DNA from: Vulcanimicrobiota bacterium
Lineage (GTDB): Bacteria; Vulcanimicrobiota; Vulcanimicrobiia; Vulcanimicrobiales; Vulcanimicrobiaceae
NCBI GenBank assembly: GCA_003151115.1
Contig: PLWS01000002.1
Coordinates: 124,001-188,000, forward strand
Length of the DNA stretch: 64,000 nt
Reading direction: 5' to 3'
A program made the translations under genes and the position numbers. Shown piece by piece: positions 1 to 61,656 of this stretch (its first letter is position 1; every line of letters starts with the position of its first letter). The notes beneath the pieces were generated by a model that saw only the letters and a program-made list of their open reading frames with translations, was not told where the DNA came from and searched no databases.

Positions 1-1236
1 GTCGGCGATCTCATCGACGCGCCGGTGCGCACGTACTCCTCCGGCATGATGATGCGCCTTGCGTTTGCGGCGGCCATCAGCGTGGATCCGGACGTGTTGC
101 TGCTCGACGAGGTCCTGGCCGTCGGAGACGCGCCGTTCGCAGAGAAGTGCCTGCGCTGCATCGATGACTTCCGCGCGCGGGGCAAAACGATCGTGCTGGT
201 TACGCACAGCATGGAGATGGTCCGGGAGCGCTGCGACCTCGTCATGTGGCTCGATCAGGGGAAAATTATGGCCTTCGGCGAGCCGGACATGGTGCTCGAC
301 GCCTATCGCAAAGCCATGGCAGCGACCAAGGAACTCGAACGCCCAGCTAAACGACCGGCTCTGCGGACGGCAATCGTCTATGGAAATTGTCAAGCCGAGG
401 CCCTTTCGAACATTCTGAAAAAGGACGAGCTCTTCGGGTCGTTGTTCCGAGTCGTGTACTGCCACAATTACGATGCTCCGGGCCAGGACCGCAATCTGCC
501 GGCATCGGAGGACCTCAGCGCGTGTGCGCTGCTGTTCTCACAGCATGGTCCCGAGCCGTTTGCATTTGCCGACCGTTTGCCAAAAGAATGCTTGACGGTG
601 CGCTTTCCGTCGGTAGATTTCAATCTTCTATGGCCGTTCCACTGTATCAATCCGTACAACAAACCGCAACTGCCGGAACTCCCGTGGGGGCCATTCCCGT
701 ACGGCGATCGCATTATTTTGGATTGCATTGAAAAGGGCATGGCGCCGGACGACATCCTGGAGTATTACTTGAACGGTTGGGCGCAATACAAGGTCGATCT
801 CAAACATATCACCCGCTTGGACCAGGCGCGTCTTGAGGCACGCGATGGCCACTGCGACATCGAGATGACATCGTGGGTGATGGAGAGATTTCGCAGCCAG
901 AGATTGTTCTGGACGATAAATCATCCGACACAGACGGTGCTGCGTGAAGTGGTCCAGCGCCTACTCAATGCCTCGGTAAGTGTTGAACCGGCGCTGCTGG
1001 AAGTGGACATAGAAAAGACTCAGGGAGTACTCTTTCCGAACTGGGAGCAGCTGGGAATGATCAACATTCCAATCCATCCGAACGTTGCCGAAGAGTTACG
1101 GCTGACCTGGTACGATATCAATCGCCCATTTAGCTCGTGCGGCAGAACCTATTCATACGAACAGTATTTTCGCGAGATGATCGATTACTGCGTGAGCGAA
1201 CGCGCTGCCGGCGCGCCGGTGGCGGCGTCAGCCTAA
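1..1236 (+). CDS. ABC export ATPase (3' part) fused to WcbI-type domain, 5' truncated by window
   Basis: The frame is open from base 1, so the start lies outside the window; 411 residues are visible. The first ~110 are the end of an ABC ATPase: signature YSSGM (12-16), Walker B LLLDEVLAVGD (33-43) and switch His in VTHS (67-70), closest in style to the Wzt/TagH polysaccharide exporters. From residue ~122 (AIVYGNCQAE) the protein becomes a WcbI-type domain, a family tied to capsule biosynthesis and annotated as putative acetyltransferase. Wzt proteins often carry a C-terminal glycan-binding domain; here a WcbI-like domain takes that place. The ATPase would energise glycan export at the inner membrane. 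The role of the WcbI part is inferred. It converges with the ACP gene with a 4-base overlap. Confidence 0.85.
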   Translation, partial: VGDLIDAPVRTYSSGMMMRLAFAAAISVDPDVLLLDEVLAVGDAPFAEKCLRCIDDFRARGKTIVLVTHSMEMVRERCDLVMWLDQGKIMAFGEPDMVLDAYRKAMAATKELERPAKRPALRTAIVYGNCQAEALSNILKKDELFGSLFRVVYCHNYDAPGQDRNLPASEDLSACALLFSQHGPEPFAFADRLPKECLTVRFPSVDFNLLWPFHCINPYNKPQLPELPWGPFPYGDRIILDCIEKGMAPDDILEYYLNGWAQYKVDLKHITRLDQARLEARDGHCDIEMTSWVMERFRSQRLFWTINHPTQTVLREVVQRLLNASVSVEPALLEVDIEKTQGVLFPNWEQLGMINIPIHPNVAEELRLTWYDINRPFSSCGRTYSYEQYFREMIDYCVSERAAGAPVAASA

Positions 1237-30391: not shown

Positions 30392-32104
30392 GTGAGTCTT
30401 GTGCACCGCGTACGGCGGAAGGTGCATCGATATGCCGCGGCTAACCGCACGTTTTCCATGAATCGGCTCGGAAACGCTTGGGATAATACCCGCCGGTCAT
30501 TTCTGCGCCTTGCGACGCAGCGCGAGGCGTTGGTCGCGATCGTTATTTTCGTCCTCTTGTGCGCGCTGGTAACGACCGTAAAAATGTATCGTCTCGACGG
30601 GCTCGAGGGCGACACGGCGACCTCGCTGCAGGCGACCGAAAACATCGCGCACCGGGGAGTGGCCACCAGCCAGGTTGCGGCGAACTCGCTGGCATTCATT
30701 TACGATAGCGGTCTAGGACGCATGACGGCCGGCCAAATTGCCAAGGATCCACTGACGCCGCCGCCCGCCACAAAAGAAGCGAACATCATGGCCTACCACA
30801 CGTACTACATACTCTACCTGGTCGCGCCGCTCGTCTGGGTTTTTCCGGTCAAGTTCGTGCTCTTTGCGTTGTGGACGCTATCGTTCTTCGGCGTGGTGGC
30901 GCTGGCATATCTTGGATTGCGTCAAAGAAACCTACCGGTAGTTGGAGCGAGTCTATTCTGTCTGCTGATCGTCTCGCATCCGGCTTGGTCGGAGAGCCTG
31001 CTCGACGGCCAATTCTACGTCGACAGGTTTTTCGTCTTCACCGGCTTTCTGTTGATGTACCTGGCTTCGCGGCAAAACGTCTCGCGAGCATGGCTCGTGG
31101 TTGCCGGCGTGCTGTGTTTGCTCGTCAACGAACGCGGAGCGCTCACCGCAGGCGCCTTTTTGCTGCTCTACGTGCTGCTGTACTGGACGCGTCCGGGAAT
31201 CGATCGGATATTCAAGCTTGGTTTCAGCTTCGTGCTGCTCGCGTACGGCGCAATTGCGCTCAAGCTCGTGCTCACCAACTCCTTCTATTCGAGCTTCATG
31301 CCGACGAGCATCGCGCAGATCATGGCGAACTTTCAGCAGCCGGTTTTTGCCCATGACGCCGAACTTTTGATCTTCGTAAACCTTCCGCTCATTTTGCTCG
31401 CGCTGTTCGAATGGCGGGCCGCGGTCATCGGAATTGTGCTGCTGTCGCCGAACGTTTTGGGCAGTATCGGGGGAGCCGAAAAAATCGCCTGGACCACCCA
31501 TTATCATTCATACTATTTCCCGGTGCTCGTGTGGGCGGCTATGCTGGGCTATGCGGCGGCGTACCGGAAAGCGGCTGCGGTAACCCGCGTGCGGCCGATC
31601 TATGCCGTGGCAGCGGTCTGTGCCATGCCGGTCGTGCTCGCCCTGTACTTGAGCATGCTCGATCCGTACACCGCGCCCGGTCCGAATCTGAGCTCGGACA
31701 CTACCAGCAATCAATTCTTTTTCAAACTCAATCGCCTATCCGCCAATTATTTGGGTGCCGGCTCGCTCGGCGCAACGCAGCAAGCGGCCGGGGACCGGCT
31801 GCGCAAGGCGGTTCCACCGGGGTCCGTCGTCACCGCGCCCGAAGGCGCGATGACGCCGCTGTACGAGCATCGCACGATCCGGTTTTTCCCGATGGGTCTC
31901 GATACGGCCGACTATGCCGTGCTCGCTTTTACGCCCACGCCGCAGGGAATTACGTATAGCGGAGACGTCAGCTATGTCGGTCCCGACGAAGCAAAAAAAA
32001 TCGACGCCGTCATTGTCCAAAGAATGAAAAAAGATCACTATGATTTCCGTCACGAGATCCTCATTCCGGAGATCAGCCTCGCCATTGTAAAACGACTGAA
32101 GTGA
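30392..32104 (+). CDS. DUF2079-like polytopic membrane protein
   Basis: 570 residues from GTG 30392. N-terminal cytosolic segment, first helix FVLLCALVTTVKMYRL, then about ten to twelve helices. The motif WTTHYHSYYFPVLVWAAMLGYAAAY and the external loop after helix one resemble DUF2079 proteins, GT-C-like membrane proteins of unknown activity. GTGA overlap with the carbamoyltransferase gene. A role in adding a sugar from a lipid carrier is plausible but unproven. Confidence 0.72.
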   Translation: MSLVHRVRRKVHRYAAANRTFSMNRLGNAWDNTRRSFLRLATQREALVAIVIFVLLCALVTTVKMYRLDGLEGDTATSLQATENIAHRGVATSQVAANSLAFIYDSGLGRMTAGQIAKDPLTPPPATKEANIMAYHTYYILYLVAPLVWVFPVKFVLFALWTLSFFGVVALAYLGLRQRNLPVVGASLFCLLIVSHPAWSESLLDGQFYVDRFFVFTGFLLMYLASRQNVSRAWLVVAGVLCLLVNERGALTAGAFLLLYVLLYWTRPGIDRIFKLGFSFVLLAYGAIALKLVLTNSFYSSFMPTSIAQIMANFQQPVFAHDAELLIFVNLPLILLALFEWRAAVIGIVLLSPNVLGSIGGAEKIAWTTHYHSYYFPVLVWAAMLGYAAAYRKAAAVTRVRPIYAVAAVCAMPVVLALYLSMLDPYTAPGPNLSSDTTSNQFFFKLNRLSANYLGAGSLGATQQAAGDRLRKAVPPGSVVTAPEGAMTPLYEHRTIRFFPMGLDTADYAVLAFTPTPQGITYSGDVSYVGPDEAKKIDAVIVQRMKKDHYDFRHEILIPEISLAIVKRLK

Positions 32105-33855
32105 ATATTTTAGGTTTCAACTGTTTCGGCCACGACTCGGCCGCCACGCTCGTCGTTGACGACGAAGTGGTGTTTGCCGTTGAAGAAGAGCGGCTCAACC
32201 GGAAGAAGCATTACGGCGGGCTGCCTCAGCGGGCGATTGCGGCGTGCCTCGATCATGCGGGCATGAGCCTTTCCGATATCGACCACGTAACGTTTTTCTG
32301 GAAACCCTCGATCTCATACGCGAAGATCCCCGTCTTCTTGATGAAGTTTTGGGACAAGGTGCCGACGCTGATGCGCGAGCAGCGCTCTTTTTCGATGGAA
32401 GAGAATCTGGGCATGCTCAATTATCTTGGCGACATGAAGAAGGCGCCGCAGACGCTCGAAACGCTTTTTCCGACGTCGAAAAAACCGAAGTTCGGCTTTC
32501 ATCTGCTCGAGCATCATTATTGTCACGCGGCCAGCGCGTTCTTCCCGACGCCCTATGAGGAAGCGGCGATCCTCACGATTGACGGCGCGGGCGAATGGAA
32601 GACCGCGATGCTTGCCCATGGCCAGGATAATACGATCACGCGCTTGAGCGCCGTTGAAACGCCTCATTCGCTTGGCGCGTTCTATCAAGCTATCTCGCGG
32701 CATCTCGGGTTCAGTTTGATCGAGGGCCCGGGCAAACTGATGGGACTGGCGTCGTACGGAGATCCCGATACGGACGTCTATCGAAGAATGCGTGAGATCG
32801 TGCGGCTGACCGACGATGGCGGTTTCAGGTTCGATATGTCGTACCTCAGTTATCACTACACGCGCAAGATTCCGTTCACCAAGAAATTCACCGATATCTT
32901 TGGACCGTCGAAAGCGCAAGCCGGCGATTGGAGCGAGCACGAGCTCAACGTTGCCGCCGCAGCGCAACATATCGTCGAAGACGTGATCTTGCACATGGTG
33001 CGAACACTCAAGAAGAGGACCAAGTCGAAGAATCTCTGCATGGCGGGCGGCGTTGCGCTGAACAGTGTAACGAATGGGTTGATCGCCAAAGAGGGATTGT
33101 TTGAGAACATCTTCATTCAACCCGCGGCGGGCGACTCGGGGACCTCGCTCGGCGCGGCGATGCTCTATAACCATCTCGTGCTCAAACGTCCGCGGAAATG
33201 GGTCATGGATACCGCATTTCTCGGTCCGAGTTATTCATCGGAAGAGTACGAAGCCGCACTTCGCAAGCACAATCTGCCCTACCGCCGTACGAAAGACTAC
33301 GGCAAGTTTGCCGCCAAGATGCTGGCGGCCGACAAGATCGTGGGCTGGTTCCAGGGGCGAATGGAGTTCGGTCCGCGGGCGCTGGGCAACCGCAGCATCA
33401 TGGCGTCGCCGCTTCACCCCGACATGAAAGCGATCCTGAACGCGCGCGTAAAATTTCGCGAAGCGTTCCGTCCTTTCGCGGCGGTCGTTCTCGAGGAAGA
33501 TTGCGGCAAGTATTTTGACAGCAGCTACCCCAACCCGTACATGCTCCTGGTCTACAGCACGCGCGAGGAATACCGCAGCAAGCTGCCGGCGATTACGCAT
33601 GTGGATAATACGGTGCGCATTCAGACGGTGAACCGCTCGGAGAATCCGGAGATGCGGGCTCTGCTCGAAGCGTTCCGCGCCGAAACGGGCTATTCGGTCC
33701 TGCTGAATACGTCGTTCAATATCAAAGGTGAGCCGATCGTGGCCAGTCCGGAAGACGCTGTCTACAGCTTCGCGCGCGCCGACATGGATTACCTGGTCAT
33801 GGGAGATTTCATCGTGGCAAAACCTGGCGACGAACGGAGTTTAGAAGCAGTATAA
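32101..33855 (+). CDS. Carbamoyltransferase (NodU/CmcH family)
   Basis: 584 residues from GTG 32101. N-terminal kinase-like fold: FNCFGHDSAATLVVDDEVVFAVEEERLNRKKH; central EHHYCHAASAFFPTPYEEA with the metal His pair; GEGPGKLMGLASYG; C-terminal GRMEFGPRALGNRSIMASP for carbamoyl-phosphate binding. The family carbamoylates sugar or antibiotic hydroxyls using carbamoyl phosphate and ATP. It sits between DUF2079 and methyltransferase genes, so the glycan probably carries a carbamoyl group. Confidence 0.9.
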   Translation: MNILGFNCFGHDSAATLVVDDEVVFAVEEERLNRKKHYGGLPQRAIAACLDHAGMSLSDIDHVTFFWKPSISYAKIPVFLMKFWDKVPTLMREQRSFSMEENLGMLNYLGDMKKAPQTLETLFPTSKKPKFGFHLLEHHYCHAASAFFPTPYEEAAILTIDGAGEWKTAMLAHGQDNTITRLSAVETPHSLGAFYQAISRHLGFSLIEGPGKLMGLASYGDPDTDVYRRMREIVRLTDDGGFRFDMSYLSYHYTRKIPFTKKFTDIFGPSKAQAGDWSEHELNVAAAAQHIVEDVILHMVRTLKKRTKSKNLCMAGGVALNSVTNGLIAKEGLFENIFIQPAAGDSGTSLGAAMLYNHLVLKRPRKWVMDTAFLGPSYSSEEYEAALRKHNLPYRRTKDYGKFAAKMLAADKIVGWFQGRMEFGPRALGNRSIMASPLHPDMKAILNARVKFREAFRPFAAVVLEEDCGKYFDSSYPNPYMLLVYSTREEYRSKLPAITHVDNTVRIQTVNRSENPEMRALLEAFRAETGYSVLLNTSFNIKGEPIVASPEDAVYSFARADMDYLVMGDFIVAKPGDERSLEAV

Positions 33856-35301: not shown

Positions 35302-36381
35302 TTAAACGAAGCGCTCGACCGTCAGGCTTTGCTTGTTCGGATTGAGCGAGCAGCCGTGGCATATCTTCGGATCGGCATTAATGAAATCGCTGACCCAGCC
35401 GGTGACGCGCGGATCGTTCCGGATCGCGTCCCAGTTGCGCTCGTCGTCCGCACGGAGATGTCCGTAATGCGATGGGCTCACGGCGTTGCAGCACGGCGTA
35501 AGGCTGCCATCGACGGTGAAGAACGGGTTGAGAAACGGCCTCACGCAGCGTTTTTCGTTTGCGCCGAAAGACGGCGTGTTGGCGTTGAAGTAGACCGAAA
35601 AGTTGGGGTAATCGCGCCGGACTGACTCCATGCGTTCGGCCAGCCACGTTTCGTCCTCGGGCCGCAACACGACCGAGATGTCGTCGGATATCACGGGGGT
35701 TATTTGGACGGGCACTTTGCCGAGCGCCGCGATCCTTCGCAGCGTCGTCTCGATGTCGAGCAGGTTGAGCCGGCTGGCAACGAGTGCCACGATGAACCAC
35801 GTAAACGTATTCCGGAAGAGTTCCAGCCGGTGCCAGAGCAGATCGGCGTCGGTTCCGGAGCGGCAGCGTTCCGCGATAACCGGATCGAGCGAGTCGACCG
35901 AGAGCGCGATAGTGATGCCGTGAAAACCGGCCAACGATTCCCAATAGGCGTCGTCATGAGTATGGGCGTTCGTGTTGAAATGGATTGAATTAAATTTTCC
36001 GGAGTCCGACGCAAAGCGCAGCATCTCGACGAAGTTCGGATGCATCGACGGCTCGCCGATGCCCTGTAAATAGATCATTCCCGTAGGGGGCAGCTTCTGA
36101 ATGATCGTGCGGAATCGCTCGAACGGAATGTGAACGTTCTGCCAGGCATTGGCCGCGATTTTTTTGGTGCGCGAACACTCCCGGCAGGCAAAATTGCAAA
36201 ACGTCGTGATCTCGATCTGCGCGGAGTCGAGCCGCGTCATCGGGGGCATGAGATTCGCGGCGACCTCCGTTGCCGGCGCTAATCCGGAACCGAAAGCCGA
36301 CCGCACGAGGGCCGGATAGTTGTCGGGGTTATTCAGACCGCGCCAGTCGAAGCCCGCGATCGAAACGACGTCGTCTTGCAT
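35302..36381 (-). CDS. Radical SAM/SPASM enzyme
   Basis: 359 residues. The radical SAM cluster is CNFACREC (C62, C66, C69), followed by GIGEPSMHPNF. SPASM-type cysteines lie at CVRPFLNPFF, GSLTPCCNAV and KICHGCSLN for auxiliary iron-sulfur clusters. Start ATG overlaps the TGA of the GT2-GT1 gene by one base. SPASM enzymes in glycan loci can dehydrogenate, epimerise or deoxygenate sugars; the reaction here is unknown. Confidence 0.85.
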   Translation of the reverse strand: MQDDVVSIAGFDWRGLNNPDNYPALVRSAFGSGLAPATEVAANLMPPMTRLDSAQIEITTFCNFACRECSRTKKIAANAWQNVHIPFERFRTIIQKLPPTGMIYLQGIGEPSMHPNFVEMLRFASDSGKFNSIHFNTNAHTHDDAYWESLAGFHGITIALSVDSLDPVIAERCRSGTDADLLWHRLELFRNTFTWFIVALVASRLNLLDIETTLRRIAALGKVPVQITPVISDDISVVLRPEDETWLAERMESVRRDYPNFSVYFNANTPSFGANEKRCVRPFLNPFFTVDGSLTPCCNAVSPSHYGHLRADDERNWDAIRNDPRVTGWVSDFINADPKICHGCSLNPNKQSLTVERFV

Positions 36382-38618
36382 CAGCGGCTGTACGCCACTC
36401 CTCTGGACTCCGAGTTGCAGAGCTCTTCGAGCGAGCGCAACAAGCTCGGAGCGACGGCGCTGCGCCCGAACCGTCCGAGCACTTCGTCTGCGGAGCGCGA
36501 GAGCTTCGTCCAGAGTTGCTCGTCATCGTAGAGCCGCGCGACAGCCTCCGCGAAACTTTTGGCATCGTTGGCGATCAGACAGTTGCGGCCGTCGGTCAAG
36601 CCGAACCCGTCGGCGGCCATTTCGGTCAGCACGACCGGCAACCGGTAGGAGAGCGCGTGTCCGACTTTGCCGTTCATGCCCGCGCCATAGCGCAGCGGTG
36701 CGACGAAGATTCGCGCGCCCAGGAAATACGGACGCACGTCCGCGACGAATCCCGGAATGCGCACGCGCTCCGACTCCATCGCGAGAACCGAATCCGGAGG
36801 GTTGCTGCCCAGCAGCGTCAGGACGATGTTCGGATTGCGCTTCCAGAGCAGCGGCATGATTTCGTCGTGCAGCCAGCGGGCGGCGTCGATGTTGGGCGGG
36901 TGGTTGTAGCCGCCGATGAAGAGTATGCCCGAAGTTTCGGAGAAGCTGCGCTCCCCCTCGACCTCAATCTCGTGGATGGTCGGCACGACGAAGACGTTTT
37001 CGACGCCGCGCTCGCGCAGGATCTTTCTTTCCGATTCCGTGACCACGACCGTCGCGTCGGCCCGCTTCGCGGCGTCCATCTCGAGCCTCTCGATTTCCTT
37101 CGAGTCATTCGGATCGCCGCCATGCACCTCGATCTCACGCAGCTTGCGCATGAAATGCAAGTCGATCGTGTCGTAGATCACGCGCGTCGCTCGATTGTGA
37201 CGAATGAGCGGTTCGTACTTGGCGAAGAGATCCGGCCGGCAAACCCACGCGAGATCCAAAACCGGCAAGACTGAGTTGAGCGACGCCTGCCACGGTATGC
37301 CGTCTTGGATGTGGTGCAGAACTTCGACCCCCAGGTCTTGAAGCTCCGTTGTATACGGCTGAAGCGGCGCGTAATTGTCGGGCAGGAAGATCACGTGGAA
37401 GCGCGCCGCGCGCAACATTCGAACGATGCGCATCAAGCGGTTCGATCCCGCGTCACGGTCGTACATCGGAACGTATGAATCCACGACCAGGATGGTCGGG
37501 CCCCCGCGCCCGCGCCGCGCGGCCGCCGGAACCGCCGCGGGGTCGCCTTCGTATTGATCCTCCAGCGCCGCGGCCCATCTGCGGCGGAATTTCGGGCGGT
37601 TGACTTCCTGAAACCGTTTCGTCCCCGACGAAAGATCCGTGCCGGAGGTAAGACCTTCGTAATGCACGACCTCGGAATGCGGCTGATAGACGACGCGAAA
37701 TCCGAGCGACCGTATCCCGAAGCAGAGGTCGGCGTCTTCGTAGTACGCCGGCACGTACTCTTCGGAAAAACCGCCGAGCTGTTCGAACAGCGCGCGGCGA
37801 ACGAGCAGAGCGGCGCCCGAACAGTAGTCCACCTCGCGCACATAGTTGTAGCGCGGGTCTTCCGGATTTTCGCCGCGGCCGTAATTCCAGCCCGTGCCGT
37901 CGCGCCAGATGATGTTGCCTGCTTCTTGCAGCTTGCCGTCCGGATAAACGAGCTTGGAGCCGGCGGCGCCTATCGTCGAATCGTTTTCAAGCGTCGTAAC
38001 CAATTGATCGAGCCAGGCGTCGCGCACGACGGTGTCGTTGTTGAGAAAACAGATGTACGTTCCGCGCGCGACGCCGGCACCGCGGTTGCACGCGCGCACG
38101 AAGCCGTAATTGCCGCCGAGTCGAACGTAATCCAAACCCGGCAGCGACGCGATTAACTCCGGAGTCGAGTCGGTCGAGCCGTCGTCTACAACGATGATTT
38201 GAACCTGCATGCTGGCAAACCACGTGTCTGCGATCGACTGCAGGCAGCGCGCCGTTACGTCGACCTTATTGTAGACGGGTATGATGACGCTCACGATCGG
38301 TTTTTCCGCGTTGAGCGGATGCTGATCCATGCGCTTCTTCCAACTCGCTTGCAAGTGATCGGGCGACCGCGGTAGCGGTCTCTCCGCAAGAACTCGCGGC
38401 GCAACTTCGCCGACCGAGAGCGCCATGCCGGGACTCCACACTGCATAACGGTCGCGCGCCACCGGCAGACCGAGCATTGCTTTGAGGGAAAACCAGAACA
38501 TCCGCAGCGCGTGAAAGCGGCTGCGCATGATGTGCGCATAGTCGGTCCGCAGACTCTCCAATCGGCGCCGCTCTTCGACGAGACGGCGCATGGCAGCGTC
38601 TAAACTCTCCTGGTCCAT
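36381..38618 (-). CDS. GT2-GT1 fusion glycosyltransferase
   Basis: 745 residues from ATG 38618; a GTG at 38714 gives 777 and is possible. First GT2 domain: VSVIIPVYNKVDVTARCL, IIVVDDGSTDSTPEL, CFLNNDTVV and a C-terminal ED in YEDADLCFG. From residue ~385 a GT1/GT4-like part: DSYVPMYDRDAGSNRLMRIVRMLR, IFIGGYNHPPNIDAARWLH, VAPLRYGAGMNGKVGHALSYRLPVV. Such fusions extend long glycans, adding alternating sugars. The gene at 41657 is a related, weaker copy on the other side of the coiled-coil protein. Confidence 0.84.
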   Translation of the reverse strand: MDQESLDAAMRRLVEERRRLESLRTDYAHIMRSRFHALRMFWFSLKAMLGLPVARDRYAVWSPGMALSVGEVAPRVLAERPLPRSPDHLQASWKKRMDQHPLNAEKPIVSVIIPVYNKVDVTARCLQSIADTWFASMQVQIIVVDDGSTDSTPELIASLPGLDYVRLGGNYGFVRACNRGAGVARGTYICFLNNDTVVRDAWLDQLVTTLENDSTIGAAGSKLVYPDGKLQEAGNIIWRDGTGWNYGRGENPEDPRYNYVREVDYCSGAALLVRRALFEQLGGFSEEYVPAYYEDADLCFGIRSLGFRVVYQPHSEVVHYEGLTSGTDLSSGTKRFQEVNRPKFRRRWAAALEDQYEGDPAAVPAAARRGRGGPTILVVDSYVPMYDRDAGSNRLMRIVRMLRAARFHVIFLPDNYAPLQPYTTELQDLGVEVLHHIQDGIPWQASLNSVLPVLDLAWVCRPDLFAKYEPLIRHNRATRVIYDTIDLHFMRKLREIEVHGGDPNDSKEIERLEMDAAKRADATVVVTESERKILRERGVENVFVVPTIHEIEVEGERSFSETSGILFIGGYNHPPNIDAARWLHDEIMPLLWKRNPNIVLTLLGSNPPDSVLAMESERVRIPGFVADVRPYFLGARIFVAPLRYGAGMNGKVGHALSYRLPVVLTEMAADGFGLTDGRNCLIANDAKSFAEAVARLYDDEQLWTKLSRSADEVLGRFGRSAVAPSLLRSLEELCNSESRGVAYSR

Positions 38619-38766
38619 AAGTCCATTTCGGCGGCGAAGCGATTCCGTTGCCTGTTCTACGATGCGGACAAATGGCCCCCCGGATTCGCGCTTGCACAGG
38701 GCTCGCCCCCGCACGGTTCGAAAGCGAGAGACTCACCGTTCCAGCAGTTGCAGCAAGGGGTAATTC
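38619..38766. other. Divergent intergenic region between two glycan genes
   Basis: 148 bases between the GT2-GT1 gene (minus) and the methyltransferase/coiled-coil gene (plus), so it must contain promoters for both unless transcription starts elsewhere. A TTGCAC near 38692 could be a -35 element on the plus strand, but no matching -10 is convincing. AAGGGG at 38755-38760 is a good ribosome site for the plus gene. Confidence 0.4.
38755..38760 (+). promoter_or_regulatory. Ribosome binding site of the coiled-coil methyltransferase gene
   Basis: AAGGGG six bases before the GTG at 38767, the only well-placed site, and it decides the start. Confidence 0.6.
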
Positions 38767-41634
38767 GTGCATGTAGTGGACGCGTCAAAAAAAGATTACC
38801 CGGTTCATTCCGACCCGCAGAGTACGCTGCTCGAGAACGAGACGGCGATCGGAAAGATTGCCAAACTGATTGCCCCAGGCTCGGCGGTGCTCGACGTCGG
38901 ATGCGCGACCGGATACCTGGCCGAACTGCTGCGGCCGAAGAACTGCGTTGTGACGGGAATCGACAGCAACGCCGCGGCCGCCAAAACAGCTCGCAAGCAT
39001 TGCGCCGAGGTAATCGTCGCCGACCTGGAAGCGCAAAGCCTGCCGGCGCTCTTCAAACGCAAGAAATTCGACGTCATCGTTTTTGCGGACGTCTTGGAAC
39101 ATTTGCGGGCTCCCGGCGACGTGCTGCAAGCGGCGCACCGCATCCTCAAGCCCAGCGGTCAAGTCATTGCTTCGATACCGAACATCGCGCACGGCGCGAT
39201 CCGTCTCGCATTGCTCGCCGGCAACTTCGACTACACCGAGCTCGGAATCTTGGACGACACGCATCTGCGGTTCTTCACAGCCAAGACGCTCGAAGAAATG
39301 TTCCTAGCCACCGGCTATCACATCGAACAAGTCGATCGCACGACCGTTCCGCTCTTCGGCACGTCCGATCTGGTGCCGCAGCTCAGCGAGGCGGATTTTT
39401 CTCCCGCCGTCGTCGACGAGGTGCGGCGCGATGCCGAACACGAGACGCTGCAGTTCATCGTTCGCGCAGCGCCGCTCGCGCCGGCGGCGCGCAACCGGCA
39501 ACTGGCCAAGCGATTTCTTCAGGCCAACACGGAACTGGCCAGAGTTACCGCGGCCTTGCGCCGCCGTGAGACCGATCTCGTGCAGATCGAAAACCAACGC
39601 GCTGAACTCGCAGCGGCCGCAGATGCGGCGCATCGCGAGATGCTCAAGGCGCAGACCGAATTCCAAAACCGCAACGCGGAACTCGAACGCGCCAACGCGC
39701 GCATCACCGACCTCGAGCGGGAACTCGTCGAGGTGTCCTCCGCGCCGCGCGCAGGCGACGCCGCTCGCGTCGAAGAGATCGAACGTCAATGCAGCGTGCT
39801 GACCGACGCGGGGCGTGAAGCGCAGCGCGAGCTGCTGGAATTGCGGGGTGCGCTGCAGCACCGCGACGCTGAAGTGGAGAACGCGAGCGCCCACATCGTT
39901 CAGCTGCAAGGGCAGCATGCGGAAAGCGTGTCGGCCATGCAAGCGGCTCAGCAGGAGCTGGTCAAGAGCGAAGCCGTGCTGCGGGTGCGCGACGCCGAGG
40001 TCGAACGCGCAGCCGCCCGCATTGCCGATCTCGAGAAGGAGCAGGCGCGCATCACCGCGGCGGTGCGCGATGCGCAGCTCGAAATGGAGAAGGCGCATGC
40101 GGCCTTGCGAAGCCGCGATGCCGAGGTGGAACGCGCCGCCGTCCACATTGGCGAACTGGAAGCGGAGCTGGCTAACGTTCGAACTGCGCTGCAAACCCGC
40201 GATGCCGAGGTCGAACGCGCGGCGGCCCACATCCACGAACTGGAAAACCAGCGCGCTGACACGACTCGGGCGATGCAAGATGCGCAGAGCGAGCTGCTCA
40301 AGAGCCAAGCTGCGCTGCAAAGCCGCGATGCCGAGGTCGAGCGCGCCACCGCCTATATCAGGCAGTTGGAAACGCAACGCGACGAAACGACGCGCGCGAT
40401 GCAAAACGCTCAGTTCGAAATGCTCAAGAGCCAAGCTGCGCTGCAAAGCCGCGATGCCGAGGTCGAGCGCGCCACCGCTCACATCGCGCAGTTAGAGAGC
40501 CAGCGTGCCGACACGATTCGGGCGATGCAAGCCGCTCAGCAGGAGCTGTTCAAGAGCCAAGCTGCGCTGCAAAGCCGCGATGCAGAAGTCGAGCGGGCGA
40601 CAGCGTATATCGGCGAGCTCGAGTCGCAACGCGATCAAATGACGCTTGCGGGACGGCAAGCGCAGCAGGAGCTGCTGGAGACGCGCGCCGCGCTGGAAAG
40701 GCGTGACGAGGATATAGAACGCGCTAGCGCAAGCATTCTGCAGCTGGAAAGACAGCGAGCCGAACTGGTCGATGCAGCAGACACAGCGCATCGCGAGATG
40801 GTCGGAGCCCAGCGGGAGCTCGAGAACCGCGATCTAGATATTCAGCGCGCCGCTGCCCACATCGCCGAGTTGGAGACCCAGCGCGCGGATGCGCTCGCGG
40901 CGATGCAAGACGCTCAGGCCGAGCTCTCCAAGAGCCAAGCCGCCCTGCAAAGCCGCGACGCCGAGATCGAACGCGCAACCGCCTACATCAAGCAATTGGA
41001 AACGCAACGCGACGAAACGACGCGCGCGATGCAAAACGCTCAGTTTGAAATGCTCAAGAGCCAAGCTGCGCTGCAAGCCCGCGATGCCGAGGTCGAACGC
41101 GCAACCGCGCAGATCGTTAAGCTCGAGTCGCAACGCGATCGTCTGATTCTGGCAGAACGCGAAACGAACCAAGCCGTGATAGGAATGCGCCGGGCGCTGC
41201 AAGACCGAGACCAGAAGATCGATCGTGCAACGGCTCTTATCGCCGATCTCGAGAACGATCGCAAGCGCGCAGCCGCGCGTATCACCGAACTCGAGTCAGA
41301 TATGACCGACGTGCGGGCCGCGCTGCAAAAACGCGATGGGGAAGTCGACGGTGCGGTGGCCCGTATGCAAGAGCTCGAAACAACGATTGCGCAGCTGAGA
41401 GAATTGCACGCCGGGGTCGAGCAAGAACTTTCGTCGGCGAAAGGAGCCATGAACGAGTTGCACTCCCGGTTCGATGAAACGCGCCGTCAGTTGTTCGAGC
41501 AAACCAATTTGTTCCTGGCGGTAACGCAAGCCGAGAACGAGCGTTTGGCACTCTTGATCGATACCGTGCAATCGAGCCGTTTCTGGCAGCTCAAACGAGT
41601 ATTGGGGAGGGTTCGGCGGGCTTTTACCGCTTGA
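38767..41634 (+). CDS. Methyltransferase with long repeat-built coiled coil; possible WbdD-like chain-length ruler
   Basis: 955 residues from GTG 38767. N-terminal SAM domain (~1-235): VLDVGCATGYLAELL, VTGIDSNAAA, DVIVFADVLEHLRAP. Residues ~245-930 are one long predicted coiled coil, built of about fourteen copies of a 42-residue unit (six heptads) with the core RDAEVERATAHIxxLE...QR; see the repeat entry. The tail SSRFWQLKRVLGRVRRAF is basic-aromatic and could bind membrane or a partner. WbdD of E. coli O9a (capping kinase/methyltransferase joined to a coiled coil that sets O-antigen length) has the same architecture, without known sequence similarity claimed here. Flanked by two GT2-GT1 fusions, so a chain-terminator and length-ruler role is inferred. 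Confidence 0.8.
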   Translation: MHVVDASKKDYPVHSDPQSTLLENETAIGKIAKLIAPGSAVLDVGCATGYLAELLRPKNCVVTGIDSNAAAAKTARKHCAEVIVADLEAQSLPALFKRKKFDVIVFADVLEHLRAPGDVLQAAHRILKPSGQVIASIPNIAHGAIRLALLAGNFDYTELGILDDTHLRFFTAKTLEEMFLATGYHIEQVDRTTVPLFGTSDLVPQLSEADFSPAVVDEVRRDAEHETLQFIVRAAPLAPAARNRQLAKRFLQANTELARVTAALRRRETDLVQIENQRAELAAAADAAHREMLKAQTEFQNRNAELERANARITDLERELVEVSSAPRAGDAARVEEIERQCSVLTDAGREAQRELLELRGALQHRDAEVENASAHIVQLQGQHAESVSAMQAAQQELVKSEAVLRVRDAEVERAAARIADLEKEQARITAAVRDAQLEMEKAHAALRSRDAEVERAAVHIGELEAELANVRTALQTRDAEVERAAAHIHELENQRADTTRAMQDAQSELLKSQAALQSRDAEVERATAYIRQLETQRDETTRAMQNAQFEMLKSQAALQSRDAEVERATAHIAQLESQRADTIRAMQAAQQELFKSQAALQSRDAEVERATAYIGELESQRDQMTLAGRQAQQELLETRAALERRDEDIERASASILQLERQRAELVDAADTAHREMVGAQRELENRDLDIQRAAAHIAELETQRADALAAMQDAQAELSKSQAALQSRDAEIERATAYIKQLETQRDETTRAMQNAQFEMLKSQAALQARDAEVERATAQIVKLESQRDRLILAERETNQAVIGMRRALQDRDQKIDRATALIADLENDRKRAAARITELESDMTDVRAALQKRDGEVDGAVARMQELETTIAQLRELHAGVEQELSSAKGAMNELHSRFDETRRQLFEQTNLFLAVTQAENERLALLIDTVQSSRFWQLKRVLGRVRRAFTA
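39660..41380 (+). repeat. Array of ~14 direct 126-base repeats coding for 42-residue coiled-coil units
   Basis: Core recurring peptide RDAEVERA at ~14 positions, mostly 42 residues (126 bases) apart; one spacing (near 40120-40210) is 28 residues, so two heptads were lost there. Copies near 40361-40470 and 40991-41100 match at all but a few bases over ~105 bases and lie exactly 630 bases, five units, apart. This points to recent duplication or gene conversion. All spacings are whole heptads, so expansion keeps the coiled-coil register. Confidence 0.85.
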
Positions 41635-41656: not shown

Positions 41657-43627
41657 ATGAGGCGCATTGTTGAGATTGCGCGCAGCCACGGGATCGGGAC
41701 GGTCTTTGCAAGGGGAACGTCGCGGGCGATTGGGCTGTGGCGCGATTCATGGCGGCTGCTCGGCGAGCGGCTGACCGCGCGGCGAGCGCTGGCGCTTCCG
41801 CACCATCCCGAAGGGCTGAAGTTCGAGCCGGTGGATCCTCTTGTGAGCGTCGCTGTCGCAGGCGGCGGCGATTGGAGATTCGTCAACCGCTGCTTGCGCG
41901 CTCTGCACAACGCGGAAACCGAACGGCCGCTGGAGGTTCTGGTTTTTCACGATCGTTCGATCGCGCCGGAGATGACAATGCACGCGGGTGTGCAGCTCGT
42001 GCCGGTTTCAAGCGCGATACCGTTCACAGAGCTCCTCAAGCAGATCATCGAGCGTGCGCGCGCTCCGTATGTCTACGTCTTGGATGCGCGCGCAGTCGCA
42101 CTCCCCGGCGCGGTCGCCGCGCTGGCGGCAACTTTGGAAAATGACCCTGCGATTGCCGCGGCCTGCTCGAAAATCTGCGGCGCCGGCGGCCGTCTGCGCG
42201 AGGCCGGCCGCGCCGTTACGGACGACGGCAACATCCAGCTCTGCGGTGCCGGCAGTTCGCCGACCGACTCGCGTTTTGAGTTTTTGCGCGACGTAGATGC
42301 CGTCTCGCCGGCAGCGTTTATGATTCGAGCCGGGTCGCTGCGCTCCGCACTCAGTGGTGCGACAACGTTCACAAGCGCCGCATGGGCGACCGTCGATCTT
42401 TGTTTTGAACTGCGTTCGCGCGGATTTCGCAGCGTCTGCCAGTCGTTTTCGCTGGTATTCTGCGACGTCGATCCGGCTGAGTCCGCCGTTGCGAGCGATG
42501 CGCGAGCCTTCGCCGGCAAATGGCTGCGCGGCGAGCCGGCGGGGCGCCGCGACGACGCCGGTTCGATTTTGTTCGTGGAAGAACACGTACCATTTACGGA
42601 TCGCGATGCGGGCTCGCAGCGCATGATGTCGCTGGTGCGTCGCGCTCGCGCAAACGGCTGGTTGGTCGTTTTCGGATCGCTCGACAAGCGCGCATACCAG
42701 CCATATTGTGACGAGCTGAAACAAGCGGGCGCGGAAGTGTTATTGGGCTTCGGCGAGGAGACGTTGAGCAGCCTGAAAGCGCGCGGATCGCGCTTCGGTT
42801 TTGTCTGGCTCTCGCGACCCGCGATTGCTTCGCAGTTTATCGCGGACGTTCGCTCCAGCCAGCCTCAGGCGCGAATTGTCTACGACACCGTCGATCTTCA
42901 CCATCTGCGCCTCGCCAGGCAAGCTGACGTTCTGGGAGAACCGGCGGGTTCGGGAGAGATGGAGCAACTCGAGTTGAACGCGGCGCGCGCGAGCGACGTT
43001 ACCGTCGTCACGAGTGCGCACGAGGCCGGCATTCTGCGCGGCCGTGGCATACGCGACGTGGCCATTGTCGGGCTGGCCGAAACACCCGTGGAGCGCGTTC
43101 CGGGTGCAGAGAATCGCGCGGGCGTCTTGTTTGTCGGAAACTACGCTCATGCGCCGAACGTGGACGCGGCCGTTCGGTTGGCCGGCGAGATCATGCCGCT
43201 CGTTTGGAAGCGCATTCCGGGGGTGGTGCTGACGTTAGCGGGCGCCGATCCGACGCCCGACGTTAAGAAACTTTCCGGTAAACTGGTGCGCGTGCCCGGG
43301 TTCGTGCGCGATCTCACACCGCTTTTTGCCGGCCATCGCGTTTTCGGCGCACCGGTTCGATTCGGCGCGGGACTCAAAGGAAAGATCGTTCGGGCGATGG
43401 CGGCGGGGATTCCGGTCGTGACCACAAGTGTGGGCGCTGAGGGCCTGCAGCTCGAGCCGGAAGAGATGATCGTTGCGAACGATGCGCAGTCGTTCGCAGA
43501 TGCCATAATCCGGCTATCCGAAAATACCGAAGAATGGGATCGTTACTCCGTCGGAGCTCGCAGAGGCGCTTTGCGTTTCTCTCCGGAGATTCAGGCCCGC
43601 CAATTCGACGCGGTGCTCTCGGCGTGA
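41657..43627 (+). CDS. Diverged GT2-GT1 fusion paralogue, GT2 half probably inactive
   Basis: 656 residues. Same plan as the gene at 36381-38618. In the N-terminal part, the nucleotide-binding VVDDGSTD has become LVFHDRSIA and the metal NND motif has become VYVLDARAVALPG, so catalysis is doubtful. The C-terminal GT1 part is well kept: FTDRDAGSQRMMSLVRRA, IVYDTVDLHHLRLA, LFVGNYAHAPNVDAA and GAPVRFGAGLKGKIVRAMAAG. It likely retains one transferase activity and may use the first half for binding. It starts 22 bases after the coiled-coil gene and overlaps the next by GTGA. Confidence 0.8.
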   Translation: MRRIVEIARSHGIGTVFARGTSRAIGLWRDSWRLLGERLTARRALALPHHPEGLKFEPVDPLVSVAVAGGGDWRFVNRCLRALHNAETERPLEVLVFHDRSIAPEMTMHAGVQLVPVSSAIPFTELLKQIIERARAPYVYVLDARAVALPGAVAALAATLENDPAIAAACSKICGAGGRLREAGRAVTDDGNIQLCGAGSSPTDSRFEFLRDVDAVSPAAFMIRAGSLRSALSGATTFTSAAWATVDLCFELRSRGFRSVCQSFSLVFCDVDPAESAVASDARAFAGKWLRGEPAGRRDDAGSILFVEEHVPFTDRDAGSQRMMSLVRRARANGWLVVFGSLDKRAYQPYCDELKQAGAEVLLGFGEETLSSLKARGSRFGFVWLSRPAIASQFIADVRSSQPQARIVYDTVDLHHLRLARQADVLGEPAGSGEMEQLELNAARASDVTVVTSAHEAGILRGRGIRDVAIVGLAETPVERVPGAENRAGVLFVGNYAHAPNVDAAVRLAGEIMPLVWKRIPGVVLTLAGADPTPDVKKLSGKLVRVPGFVRDLTPLFAGHRVFGAPVRFGAGLKGKIVRAMAAGIPVVTTSVGAEGLQLEPEEMIVANDAQSFADAIIRLSENTEEWDRYSVGARRGALRFSPEIQARQFDAVLSA

Positions 43628-49216: not shown

Positions 49217-50023
49217 ATGGCGGGTGCCTTATCCTACCTCGATGAGCTCGAGGCGCAGACGGTGTACATTCTGCGCGAGGCCTTCGCATGCGCTACGCCG
49301 CTCTGCGCCTTGTGGTCCGTCGGTAAAGACAGCACGGCACTGTTGTGGCTCATGCGCAAAGCGCTTCTCGGACACGTTCCGTTTCCGATCATTCAGCTCG
49401 ATACGGAGATGGAGCTTCCCGAAGTCTACGAATTCCGCGACCGGATCGCCAAAGAGTGGGATCTCGATCTGCGGGTGGAACTTTGTCCGCCCGAATCGAG
49501 CGTGGATCAAACGCTGCCGCCCGGCGCCCGCGCCGCTGCGCGCAAGACCGAGGGTCTCAAGCATTTGCTGCGCCGCGACGGATACCGCGGTGTGATCTTG
49601 GGAATCCGGCGCGACGAGCAGGCGACGCGCGCCAAAGAACGCATTTTCAGCCCGAGGTCTTTCGGCGGCGATTGGGACGTACGCCACCAGCCTGCCGAGT
49701 TTTGGAATCACTACGCCACCGACGTCGCGGAAGGCATGCATCTGCGGATTCATCCGCTGCTGCATTGGACGGAAGTTGATATTTGGCGGTATCATCTGCG
49801 TGAAGGCATTCCGTACGTGCCGCTCTATCTCGCCAAAGATGGCAAACGGTACCGTTCGCTCGGCGAAAAGAATATCACCGTACCGATAGAGAGCAACGCC
49901 TCGACGCTCGAAGACATCATTGCCGAGCTTGAAGCGACGCGGGAACCCGAACGCGCCGGTCGCCTTATGGATCACGAACAGGAAGATGCCTTCGAACGGC
50001 TGCGCACGTCGGGCTACATGTAA
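49217..50023 (+). CDS. cysD: Sulfate adenylyltransferase subunit 2
   Basis: 268 residues. PP-loop WSVGKDSTALLWLMRKAL (34-40 for SVGKDST), TEMELPEVYEFRD, and the nucleotide motif RRDEQATRAKERIFSPR. The C-terminal EVDIWRYHLREGIPYVPLY is conserved. CysD makes adenosine 5'-phosphosulfate from ATP and sulfate, driven by the CysN GTPase. Its stop is followed directly by the ATG of cysNC. Together with the sulfotransferase gene it marks sulfate activation for surface modification rather than assimilation, as no reductase genes are near. Confidence 0.92.
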   Translation: MAGALSYLDELEAQTVYILREAFACATPLCALWSVGKDSTALLWLMRKALLGHVPFPIIQLDTEMELPEVYEFRDRIAKEWDLDLRVELCPPESSVDQTLPPGARAAARKTEGLKHLLRRDGYRGVILGIRRDEQATRAKERIFSPRSFGGDWDVRHQPAEFWNHYATDVAEGMHLRIHPLLHWTEVDIWRYHLREGIPYVPLYLAKDGKRYRSLGEKNITVPIESNASTLEDIIAELEATREPERAGRLMDHEQEDAFERLRTSGYM

Positions 50024-51877
50024 ATGACGCACACGCTGAAGATCGTCATCGGCGGTCACGTGGATCATGGAAAGTCTACCTTGATCGGACGGCTCCTGCA
50101 CGACACCGGCAGCTTGCCGCTGGGAAAAGCGGCGAAGCTGGAAGCGCTAAGCAGTAAACGGGGCGTGCCGCTGGAGTGGTCTTTCGTTCTGGACGCCTTA
50201 CAAACGGAGCGCGATCAAGCCATTACGATCGACACGACGCGCGTGTGGTTTACGTGGAACGATCGCAGGTACGCGATCATCGACACGCCCGGCCACCGCG
50301 AGTTCGTACGCAACATGCTGAGCGGAGCGTCGGAAGCGGATGCGGCGGTGCTCGTCGTCGATGTCTTGGAAGGAGTGAGCGAACAAACCAAACGGCACGC
50401 GCAATTACTGCAAATGCTCGGCATAGGACAACTGGCCGTCGCCGTCAACAAGATGGATGCCGCCGGCTACGATCGTTCGCGTTTTGAAGAAGTCTCGTGC
50501 GACGTGCATGCGCTGCTCTCGGCGCTCGAGCTGCGTCCACATTCACTGATTCCGATCTCCGCGCGCAACGGTGAAAATCTGCTCAACCGTTCGGAGAACA
50601 TGCCGTGGTATCAAGGGCCGACGCTGTTGGAAGCGCTCAGCGATTTCAAACCGGTCCACGCGATCGCGGACGCGCCGCTGCGCTTGCGCGTGCAAGACGT
50701 CTACCGTGTCGGGGGCAGCCGCGTGGCAGTGGGGCGCGTCGAATCGGGAAGCGTCGCGCGCGGCGATACGGTGCTGCTCTCGCCCATGAACACCAAAGCC
50801 ACGGTGCGCAGCATCGAGCGATGGAACGCGCCGGACGGGCAGCCGGCGGCGGCGGGAGAATCGATCGGCATAACGTTTAACGAGCCGGTCTTCATCAACC
50901 GCGGCGACGTCGTCAGTCACGTCGATCGCGCGCCTTTCCTGGACTATGCGTTTCGCGCCATTTGCTTCTGGCTCGATGAGTCGCCGCCGGAACTCGGGGA
51001 GCAAGTGACGGTGCAGTTCGGCCCGACGACCGCGCGCGCGGTTATCGCCGCCGTGGACGCTGTGATGGACTCCGCAACGCTGCAGCAGCTTTCATCCGAA
51101 CATATTCCGCGGTATGCGGTCGTGCAGCTCCGATTGCGATCGCCGGCGCTGCTTCCGCTCGACGAACAGCAAGCGATGCCGGCTTCGGCGCGCATGGTCA
51201 TCCTGCGCGGCCGCGACGTCGTGGCGGGCGGCATCGTCAGCAGCGTGATGACCGGCAACATGCCGGCGAATATTTTTCATTCCGACCATCTCGTATCGGC
51301 TGCAGAGCGCGAGCGGCGCAATGGGCATAGGGGCGCGGTGATTTGGCTCACGGGGCTTCCGGGCGCCGGAAAATCGACGCTGGCGATGGCCTTGGAGAGC
51401 GCGCTCTTTAGAAGAGGCGCGGCGGTGTACGTGCTCGACGGCGACAACGTGCGCGCGGGGCTGAACAGCGATCTCGGCTTCTCCATCGCCGATCGCGCCG
51501 AGAATATCCGGCGCATAGGCGAAGTGGCGGCGCTTTTTGCGGATGCCGGTCTGATCGTCATCACCGCGTTCATCTCGCCGATGCAGCGCGACCGCGCTAT
51601 CGCGCGCCAAGCTGCCGGTGGTCGCTTTCACGAGATCTATGTGCGCGCGGACCTGCTGACCTGCGAAGCGCGCGATACCAAGGGGCTTTACAAACGCGCG
51701 CGCGCCGGGGAGCTTTCCGATTTTACAGGCATCTCGGCTCCGTACGAGGCACCGGACTCACCTGAACTGACGATAGATACCGGCAGCTCGAGCGTCGACC
51801 GCTGCGTCGGCGAGCTCCTGGAGTACGTTGTCGCTGCAACCGGTTTGGAAGCGCACGCGCCCGTACCCCAGCGCTAA
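50024..51877 (+). CDS. cysNC: Bifunctional sulfate adenylyltransferase subunit 1 / APS kinase
   Basis: 617 residues. GTPase part: G1 [11 protein letters not shown] (10-20), G3 DTPGHREF (~86-93) and G4 NKMD (~145). Domain II/III follow. From ~440 the APS kinase: [34 protein letters not shown] and [13 protein letters not shown]. The fusion gives both APS and PAPS. It is immediately downstream of cysD without a gap. PAPS would feed the sulfotransferase-like protein at 48315. Confidence 0.93.
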
Positions 51878-58732: not shown

Positions 58733-59999
58733 GGTCGAGAGGCATCGCGAGCACGATCGATCCGATCGCATTGAAGATCGTGTCGCCCGCGATGAGCGGC
58801 GGCGCGGAGGAGAAGGGCTGCAAGAACGAGCTCGTGTGAATCACGTTGCCGTTGCGTTCGTCGACCGCGTACAGAACGCCGCCGGTGTCGCCGAAGTAGA
58901 CGCGCCCCTTTTTGACGACGGGACTCATCTTGACGTTTGCCCACGTGCGCAGGTTCCACAGAATCTTTCCGGTTTGCGCGTCGAAGGCGATGAAGCGGCT
59001 CGCGTTTCCGATCGGCTGAAAGAGTGCGCCGTCCGCGACCGTGCCGGCGATCTGCCGCTCATTCGTGGCGGGGAATGTGTACGGTCCCGGTTCGCCTTCA
59101 TAAGTCCAGCGTGTCTTGCCGGTGCGTTCGTCGATCGCGGCAACGATATCCGTTCCGCCCGTATGATAGTGGGATTCGTCGTTGCGGTTGCTGTTGACGA
59201 AGACCAGCCCGTCCGCAACTGCGGGCGAACAATCGCTGCCGCCGTTCGGATTGGTCCAAACCGTGCGTCCGTCGCGCACGTCGAGCGCGCGCGTTTCGCA
59301 ATAATACGGCGCGTTATGGCACGAGCTGATGAAGGCGACGCCGTTGTCGATCGCCGTCGAGGCCATCGTGACCGCCCCCGCCAGCGGCACCTGCCATTTG
59401 AGCTTGCCCGTCGTGAGATCGAGCGCATATGCATGCGCGTCGCCATTTCCGAAAACGACCGTGTCGCCGTCGATCGCGGGCGTCGGCATATCCTCGCCGT
59501 CCGTATGGAATTTCCACAGCGGCTTGCCGGCGAACGAATACGCGAAGACGTTGTCTCCTTCGGGCCGTCCCCACGTTTGTGAAACCGGATCATCAGGCTT
59601 CATGAAACCGTTGTGTCCGCTGCCGATGATCAGAACGCCCTTGGCGTAGACCGGCGTCGACATGAGGATGTCGTCGGTCAGCAGACTCCAGAGGATCTTT
59701 CCCGATGCCGCGTCGATTGCGTAGAGCTTGTGGTCGAAGCTGACCGCGTACAGCGTCGTTCCTTCGAGGGCGAAACCGCCGTTAATACGATCGCCGAGTC
59801 CGGTTTGCCAATCGGCGTGCAAAACGGGCTCGTCGAAGACTGCGTTGTGCGTCGCACCGTACTGATACATCGGCCACGTCCCGCTCGCGCGCGCCGGCGG
59901 CGATTGCGCGATCGAACCGCGCTGGCCGAACACGCATCCGGCCGCCGTCAGCACCGCAATGCCGGCCGCGATCACCGCCGTTCGTTGTACCACGCTCAT
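58725..59999 (-). CDS. PQQ-type beta-propeller lipoprotein
   Basis: 424 residues from ATG 59999 with lipobox LTAAGC (C22). Repeating blades with the tryptophan-docking pattern: LYAIDAASGKILW, YALDLTTGKLKWQV, RALDVRDGRTVW, AAIDERTGKTRWTY, IAFDAQTGKILWNL and LYAVDERNGNVIH, about seven blades. PQQ residues are not certain, so it could be an enzyme or a BamB-like scaffold. Envelope-located. Confidence 0.82.
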   Translation of the reverse strand: MSVVQRTAVIAAGIAVLTAAGCVFGQRGSIAQSPPARASGTWPMYQYGATHNAVFDEPVLHADWQTGLGDRINGGFALEGTTLYAVSFDHKLYAIDAASGKILWSLLTDDILMSTPVYAKGVLIIGSGHNGFMKPDDPVSQTWGRPEGDNVFAYSFAGKPLWKFHTDGEDMPTPAIDGDTVVFGNGDAHAYALDLTTGKLKWQVPLAGAVTMASTAIDNGVAFISSCHNAPYYCETRALDVRDGRTVWTNPNGGSDCSPAVADGLVFVNSNRNDESHYHTGGTDIVAAIDERTGKTRWTYEGEPGPYTFPATNERQIAGTVADGALFQPIGNASRFIAFDAQTGKILWNLRTWANVKMSPVVKKGRVYFGDTGGVLYAVDERNGNVIHTSSFLQPFSSAPPLIAGDTIFNAIGSIVLAMPLDHV

Positions 60000-60120
60000 T
60001 CCGCCCCTTTTGCCCACGGCGCCTTATTGTCATGGTGCGCCCTGTTGTCATGGTGAGCGAAGTCGAACCACCCCGAGCAGCGTCCAAGGGACGCGTGACG
60101 AGGGGCCGTACAAGGAAGAC
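60000..60120. other. 121-base divergent region with dispersed repeats
   Basis: Between the propeller lipoprotein (minus) and kamD (plus). Holds the repeat at 60027-60072 and a good AAGGA at 60112-60116 before kamD. No promoter hexamers or cobalamin riboswitch signature could be recognised, although the enzyme encoded next depends on B12. Confidence 0.4.
60027..60072. repeat. Dispersed short repeat, partly duplicated
   Basis: TTGTCATGGTG occurs at 60027-60037 and again at 60045-60055, the second copy continuing as AGCGAAGTCGAACCACC. It is a relative of the common GTCATCCTGAGCGAAGTCGAA repeat class, like the element at 55039-55063. It sits just upstream of kamD. Confidence 0.55.

Positions 60121-61652: not shown

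Positions 61653-61656
<4 letters not shown>
60121..61656 (+). CDS. kamD: Lysine 5,6-aminomutase alpha subunit
   Basis: 511 residues from ATG 60121, preceded by AAGGA. Sequence matches KamD: MIVASGNIYEDRTAAVAAAEAGAQIIAVIRSTGQSLLDFVPYG, EGFGGTYATQANF, LTNYASGLCMPEIA and NDSMYGILFRDINMKRTF. The subunit forms the TIM-barrel part for substrate and adenosylcobalamin chemistry, moving the epsilon-amino group of lysine to C5 with the beta subunit. The gene overlaps kamE by ATGA. No other lysine fermentation genes adjoin. Confidence 0.92.

Follow-up and report, generated by a model that had tools for sequence, protein, structure and literature searches.

That coiled coils can act as rulers of glycan length is established for a small number of Enterobacteria, in most cases through artificial changes in coil length. 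Does a methyltransferase from a distant phylum, joined to a rod perhaps five times as long as that of WbdD, terminate and measure a glycan in the same way? The question is raised by a gene in the window, the 64,000-nucleotide stretch of a Vulcanimicrobiota genome (contig PLWS01000002.1, positions 124,001 to 188,000) that was analyzed here. The family to which the gene belongs keeps its ends constant while its coils vary in nature, and its exporters are without the usual cap-reading domain, so that two matters become testable through the family: up to what length a ruler of this kind can work, and whether recognition of the cap by the exporter is dispensable. We lean towards the reading that the protein is a methyltransferase which terminates the chains of an O-antigen-like glycan exported by an ABC transporter, with the coiled coil as its spacer, as in WbdD or the Klebsiella O7 protein ORF6. 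The parts of the gene are as follows.

38767..41634, plus strand: methyltransferase-coiled-coil gene, 955 aa, GTG start
38767..39480, plus strand: methyltransferase domain, residues 1-238 (Pfam, SAM motif VLDVGCATGYL, AF2)
39481..41571, plus strand: coiled coil, residues 239-935 (heptad analysis, AF2)
39751..41481, plus strand: single unbroken heptad register, about residues 329-905 (heptad analysis)
39808..41445, plus strand: ~13 degenerate blocks of 42 residues (126 bp), nine of them in phase (repeat analyses)
41524..41631, plus strand: conserved basic-aromatic tail, last 36 residues, a putative docking element (homologue alignment, dN/dS)

The preliminary description of this DNA had recognized a SAM methyltransferase, ~680 coiled-coil residues and a basic-aromatic tail, and this composition was borne out by Pfam, heptad analysis and AF2, with ~690 helical residues. 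The start codon is backed by the homologue alignment, in which alignments run from the first residues. Methyltransf_23 matches residues 31-188 of the window protein (Pfam, E 1.6e-24), and residues 1-268 were modelled well by AF2 (mean pLDDT 88). The helix of the coil begins at residue 239, directly after the methyltransferase and with no intervening domain in the AF2 model; Pfam gave no match to a kinase domain in the window protein.

In the window coil, the heptad power at period 3.50 reached 6.36, whereas shuffled sequences gave 1.25 at most, and one register extends over ~575 residues (about 329-905), with a lone phase step near residues 315-330. The AF2 monomer is helical over residues 239-935, interrupted briefly at four places (326-330, 343-346, 507-512 and 856-859), and its confidence is low in the middle of the coil (pLDDT ~40-60 at residues 490-770, pTM 0.41). 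The continuous coil whose prediction had been proposed as a check was thus recovered as a nearly continuous predicted helix, most of it in one register, but with these breaks and with the low mid-coil confidence. Self-identity at a lag of 42 residues is ~40% over the coil, a value reached by none of 400 heptad-block shuffles, and Tandem Repeats Finder reported 7.4 copies of a 126 bp unit at 40184-41115. The repeats had been described as exact and as ~14 in number; the unit size of 42 residues holds, but the units are degenerate (the best pair is 93% identical in DNA, most pairs 62-81%), the count is corrected to ~13, and only nine of the blocks, over residues 474-851, share one phase. The three blocks preceding these are shifted by 28 residues, i.e., by whole heptads. 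Agreement between units peaks at the core of the coil, being 0.76 at position a and 0.80 at position d versus 0.50-0.59 at b, c and f. Since the unit is itself made of whole heptads, the earlier proposal that 42-residue units can be gained or lost without breaking the register stands. If straight, the rod would measure ~85 nm over the unbroken register and ~100 nm as a whole, by arithmetic at 0.15 nm per residue. An antisense open reading frame (39304-40482, minus strand) was rejected as a gene, since it only mirrors the repeats.

In E. coli WbdD, a trimeric coil keeps the catalytic domains at a distance of ~20 nm from the membrane (PMC5082667), and altering this coil alters the length of the O-antigen (PMC5082667, PMC6286764). 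Like the window protein, WbdD of E. coli O9/O9a is built of an N-terminal methyltransferase, a coiled coil and a tail; the tail is membrane-proximal, with an SRSW motif at the end of the coil, which resembles the layout seen here, and the wbdD cluster contains a two-domain glycosyltransferase polymerase together with Wzm/Wzt, as does that of the window, where the two-domain enzyme is a candidate polymerase. Unlike in the window protein, the methyltransferase of WbdD from O9/O9a is separated from the coil by a kinase (APH/Pkinase matches), its coil of ~20 nm is without repeats of the 42-residue type, and its Wzt has the Wzt_C domain. When the two sequences were compared, in a single BLASTP comparison with WbdD of E. 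coli HS (L135:17967-20093), no more than 26 residues of the SAM motif aligned (E 1e-4), and WbdD was not among the top PDB sequence and fold matches listed for the window protein. With no kinase, and with similarity confined to these 26 residues, orthology with WbdD was rejected. The WbdD-like architecture that the preliminary description had claimed is therefore retained for the order methyltransferase-coil-tail, the neighbouring glycosyltransferase and the ABC exporter, and given up for the kinase, for sequence similarity, which is nearly nil, and for Wzt_C.

Other terminators resemble the window protein in other respects. WbdD of E. coli O8 and of K. pneumoniae O5 is a kinase-less methyl terminator with a coil (PMC3482155, PMC11231755), as the window protein would be, a likeness drawn from published descriptions, and in E. 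coli O8 this methyltransferase-only homologue suffices (PMC3482155); in these systems, unlike in the window, the CBM of the exporter reads the cap. ORF6 of Klebsiella O7 consists of a methyltransferase-kinase, a coil and two glycosyltransferases (PMC11231755), so that terminator and coil are joined to glycosyltransferase modules as in the cyanobacterial protein L034 described below; 7pd7, its nearest methyltransferase structure, is also among the PDB matches of the window protein. The O7 protein differs in having a kinase and a CBM-like domain, and in that its glycosyltransferase modules belong to the one polypeptide; the window encodes its glycosyltransferases in genes of their own. In WbbB of K. 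pneumoniae O12 and Raoultella, length is controlled by a single unit made up of terminator, coil and polymerase (PMC11231755); in WbbB, unlike in the window protein, the terminator is a Kdo transferase and all modules lie in one chain. Coil-bearing terminators have been described as widespread in ABC-exported glycans (PMC11231755), and the general architecture is already known. What sets the present case apart is the length of the coil, its build from repeats, the lack of a kinase, the near absence of similarity to WbdD and, above all, the absence of Wzt_C. In our view the window protein probably acts in the manner of a WbdD-type terminator, but we do not assign it to the WbdD/Wzt-CBM system.

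Close homologues are patchy, being present at E<=1e-50 in 16 of the 117 genomes of the class, and in the first aligned homologue set the methyltransferase is 47-64% identical to that of the window. On named contigs outside Cyanobacteria, the best close homologue came from a Candidatus Eremiobacterota MAG (L035). Protein lengths are 391 residues in G035, 402 and 412 in G007, 440 in G003, 683 in G016, 704 in G012, 764 in G088 and at least 701 in G006, where the gene lies at a contig end. Among the class homologues the methyltransferase is kept and the tail mostly so (G007a departs from the other relatives at its end), and the coil varies from ~98 to 662 residues; within the genus of the window itself, it has 147 residues in G003 versus 662 in the window. 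A gene of G015 (L029:8633-10138) with a similar tail and coil and a divergent N-terminus was excluded from the family set. In L037:1910-4054, L042:4971-6944 and L039, a domain of ~300-400 aa is inserted between methyltransferase and coil tail, for which Pfam gave no name at a useful score.

The sisters G088 and G012 are 83.5% identical, and their coils differ by a net 49 residues (seven heptads) and by 11. Between them, dN/dS is 0.054 for the methyltransferase, 0.155 for the coil and 0.036 for the tail, and within the coil the core positions a and d are better conserved than the others (p=0.02). The ends are under strong purifying selection and the coil is less strictly constrained, as befits a functional spacer that is free to change in length from one lineage to another; by itself, this pattern falls short of showing that the length of the coil is measured. 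The coil might instead be a tether and not a ruler, in which case the enzyme would cap or decorate the glycan, the coil would serve only to oligomerize it and dock it to the membrane and to glycosyltransferases, and coil length would be near-neutral, drifting by repeat recombination. The ~seven-fold spread of coil length among homologues, extending even to the same-genus pair, and the looser constraint on the coil than on either end speak for this account, but the register is maintained, core positions are preferentially conserved, and in WbdD, which has the same layout, the length of the coil does set that of the chain (PMC5082667, PMC6286764). We consider it rather unlikely that the coil is such a tether.

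A lag of 42 residues is exceptional (0 of 400 heptad-block shuffles) in the coils of G000, G016, G012, G088, G006 and G103, and in five of these six it ranks first of all lags that are multiples of seven, with G012 and G088, as sisters, counting as non-independent cases of the period. A profile of the 42-residue unit of the window matched the coil of the same-genus G003 only, and for this reason a single ancestral unit common to all relatives was rejected. The recurrence of 42 is unexplained: either erosion has made the units unrecognizable, or there is some advantage in the number 42 as such.

The features around the gene that bear on a glycan function are as follows.

36381..38714, minus strand: GT2-GT1 fusion, divergent neighbour, candidate polymerase (Pfam, synteny)
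38466..38522, minus strand: motif SRFHALRMFWFSLKAMLGL near the N-terminus of the GT2-GT1 fusion, resembling the tails of cyanobacterial methyltransferase-coil proteins
41657..43627, plus strand: glycosyltransferase, GT1 detected, N-terminal half resembling a degenerate GT2 (Pfam, further comparison)
1..1233, plus strand: 3' part of the Wzt ATPase of the cluster, WcbI-fused; the gene starts 428 bases before the window

Two GT2-GT1 fusions had been said to flank the gene. The upstream one is clear from Pfam, but in the downstream one Pfam detects the GT1 half only. The Wzt-type ATPase that had been placed in the locus does belong to the cluster but lies far off, ~37.5 kb from the methyltransferase-coil gene; in full it occupies G000:C6:123572-125233 (L030:5572-7233), with Wzm just upstream. 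In G003, G016 and G012, the methyltransferase-coil gene sits between Wzt, with Wzm beyond it, and the GT2-GT1 fusion. In the window the GT2-GT1 neighbour is retained, but the opposite side has no Wzm/Wzt; the pair of the cluster is found upstream, at the cluster edge. We further analyzed 80 homologues from other genomes, in which a coil was called by a simple composition rule: Wzm and Wzt are found within 5 kb of 19 of the 43 coil-bearing homologues versus 1 of the 37 coil-less ones (p=1.3e-5), and of 10/28 versus 1/29 (p=0.0024) once lineages, labelled by hand from record titles, are collapsed. In the sample of relatives, the methyltransferase-coil gene also co-occurs with the Wzt type of the cluster (p=3e-6, by a hand tally that ignores kinship). 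A role outside glycan synthesis, in which the enzyme would, for example, methylate a small molecule or a lipid and the coil would form a scaffold of cytoskeletal type, could be argued from the generic methyltransferase fold and from the best PDB match of the window protein, 3cc8, which is uncharacterized; given that glycosyltransferases and Wzm/Wzt are conserved as neighbours, and given the fusions to GT2 modules described below, we hold it to be very improbable.

The exporter itself is where the locus departs from expectation. According to the literature, every terminated O-antigen system studied has Wzt_C. No Wzt_C (PF14524) was found in the class genomes searched (0 of 8). On the Wzt of the window its place is occupied by a WcbI domain (PF18588, E 2.1e-34), which relatives carry as a separate gene, often several, within the same cluster, and Pfam showed no extra domain on the Wzt of G003, G016 or G012. 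It is possible that a diverged cap-reading module was overlooked by Pfam, only where Wzt has extra sequence. Because the exporters of the class are without the cap-reading Wzt_C, the full WbdD-Wzt scheme fails to carry over. Outside the class, exporters with Wzt_C accompany the methyltransferase-coil family in all eight relatives tested, so that the lineage of the window may have lost the module or exchanged it for another. The lack of Wzt_C would also be expected if export were independent of a cap, with the enzyme methylating side groups along or within the glycan and leaving its growth unstopped. Length would then follow from the ratio of polymerase to exporter, the stoichiometric control described for unterminated ABC-exported O-antigens (PMC6286764). 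Yet the same eight relatives place the family beside cap-reading exporters, side-group methylation needs no long coil, and the methyltransferase-coil-GT2 fusions resemble ORF6 of Klebsiella O7, a shown terminator; side-group methylation thus strikes us as improbable. LpxC is present in 4/4 genomes tested, which makes lipid A in the envelope likely, and the cultured member of the Eremiobacterota has a Gram-negative envelope (PMC9758169).

The cyanobacterial tails of L033 and L034 are more similar to the N-terminal end of the GT2-GT1 fusion in the window than shuffled sequences are; the similarity of the window's own tail to the N-terminus of its fusion was within the shuffle range. In a cyanobacterial Oculatellaceae MAG (L034:4992-8210), a single protein has the order methyltransferase-coil-tail-GT2-GT2-coil-tail, and in a Dormibacterota MAG (L107:4980-6795) a single protein reads methyltransferase-GT2-coil-tail. 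The 1082 aa of L034 were rejected as a case of a longer coil, their length being due to the glycosyltransferase fusion. With a profile of 24 tails, the best match outside the family was the coil end of WbdD from E. coli HS (E 1.2e-5), largely a coil signal, and the tail motif alone gave E 1.2 against the same protein, which is not significant. As proof of homology to WbdD the motif was judged too weak alone; the coil of SerS scores with the full tail profile too. We infer that the tail may serve in docking, by recruiting both the terminator and the polymerase to the membrane.

If the protein is a terminator with a coiled-coil spacer, as we favour, the tail would dock it at the inner membrane next to the polymerase, a role that probably falls to the neighbouring GT2-GT1 fusion, and the coil would oligomerize and so keep the methyltransferase away from the membrane, by ~85-100 nm if straight. 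The lipid-linked glycan, the presumed substrate, would be O-methylated, and hence stopped, only once its free end reached the methyltransferase; since capping would have to await this contact, the coil would impose a minimum chain length. Whole heptad blocks gained or lost would then shift the length of the spacer and leave the register intact. Against such a capping ruler stand the large variation in length between close relatives, which would fit a neutral tether too, the class genomes without Wzt_C, the position of the window's gene away from Wzm/Wzt, the low mid-coil confidence of an AF2 model that is a monomer, and the other possible end-group enzymes and Wzy-type route of the cluster, to which we come below. 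A bolder version would do without an exporter checkpoint for the cap: the rod alone would set the length, evolving by six-heptad units (42 residues, ~6 nm). That the same 42-residue period is found in several relatives whose units have no detectable similarity in sequence hints at a preferred ruler step, and if this version were true, the related genomes would amount to a natural series of ruler lengths; we regard it as rather doubtful.

Further genes of the cluster may act on the same glycan or on another. An RmnT/CmcI-type methyltransferase and a carbamoyltransferase are other candidate end-group enzymes, the region 32101-33855 encodes a NodU-like carbamoyltransferase, and at 49217-51877 a PAPS-reductase-family gene is followed by a GTPase, a pair resembling CysD/CysN of sulfate activation. 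Judging by these genes, the glycan may additionally be carbamoylated or sulfated. A Wzx-type flippase and a Wzy_C protein are also present, making a Wzy-type route possible for this or another glycan. Just past the glycan cluster, 59959-61656 strongly matches the TIM-barrel domain of the D-lysine 5,6-aminomutase alpha subunit (PF09043, E 1.2e-232).
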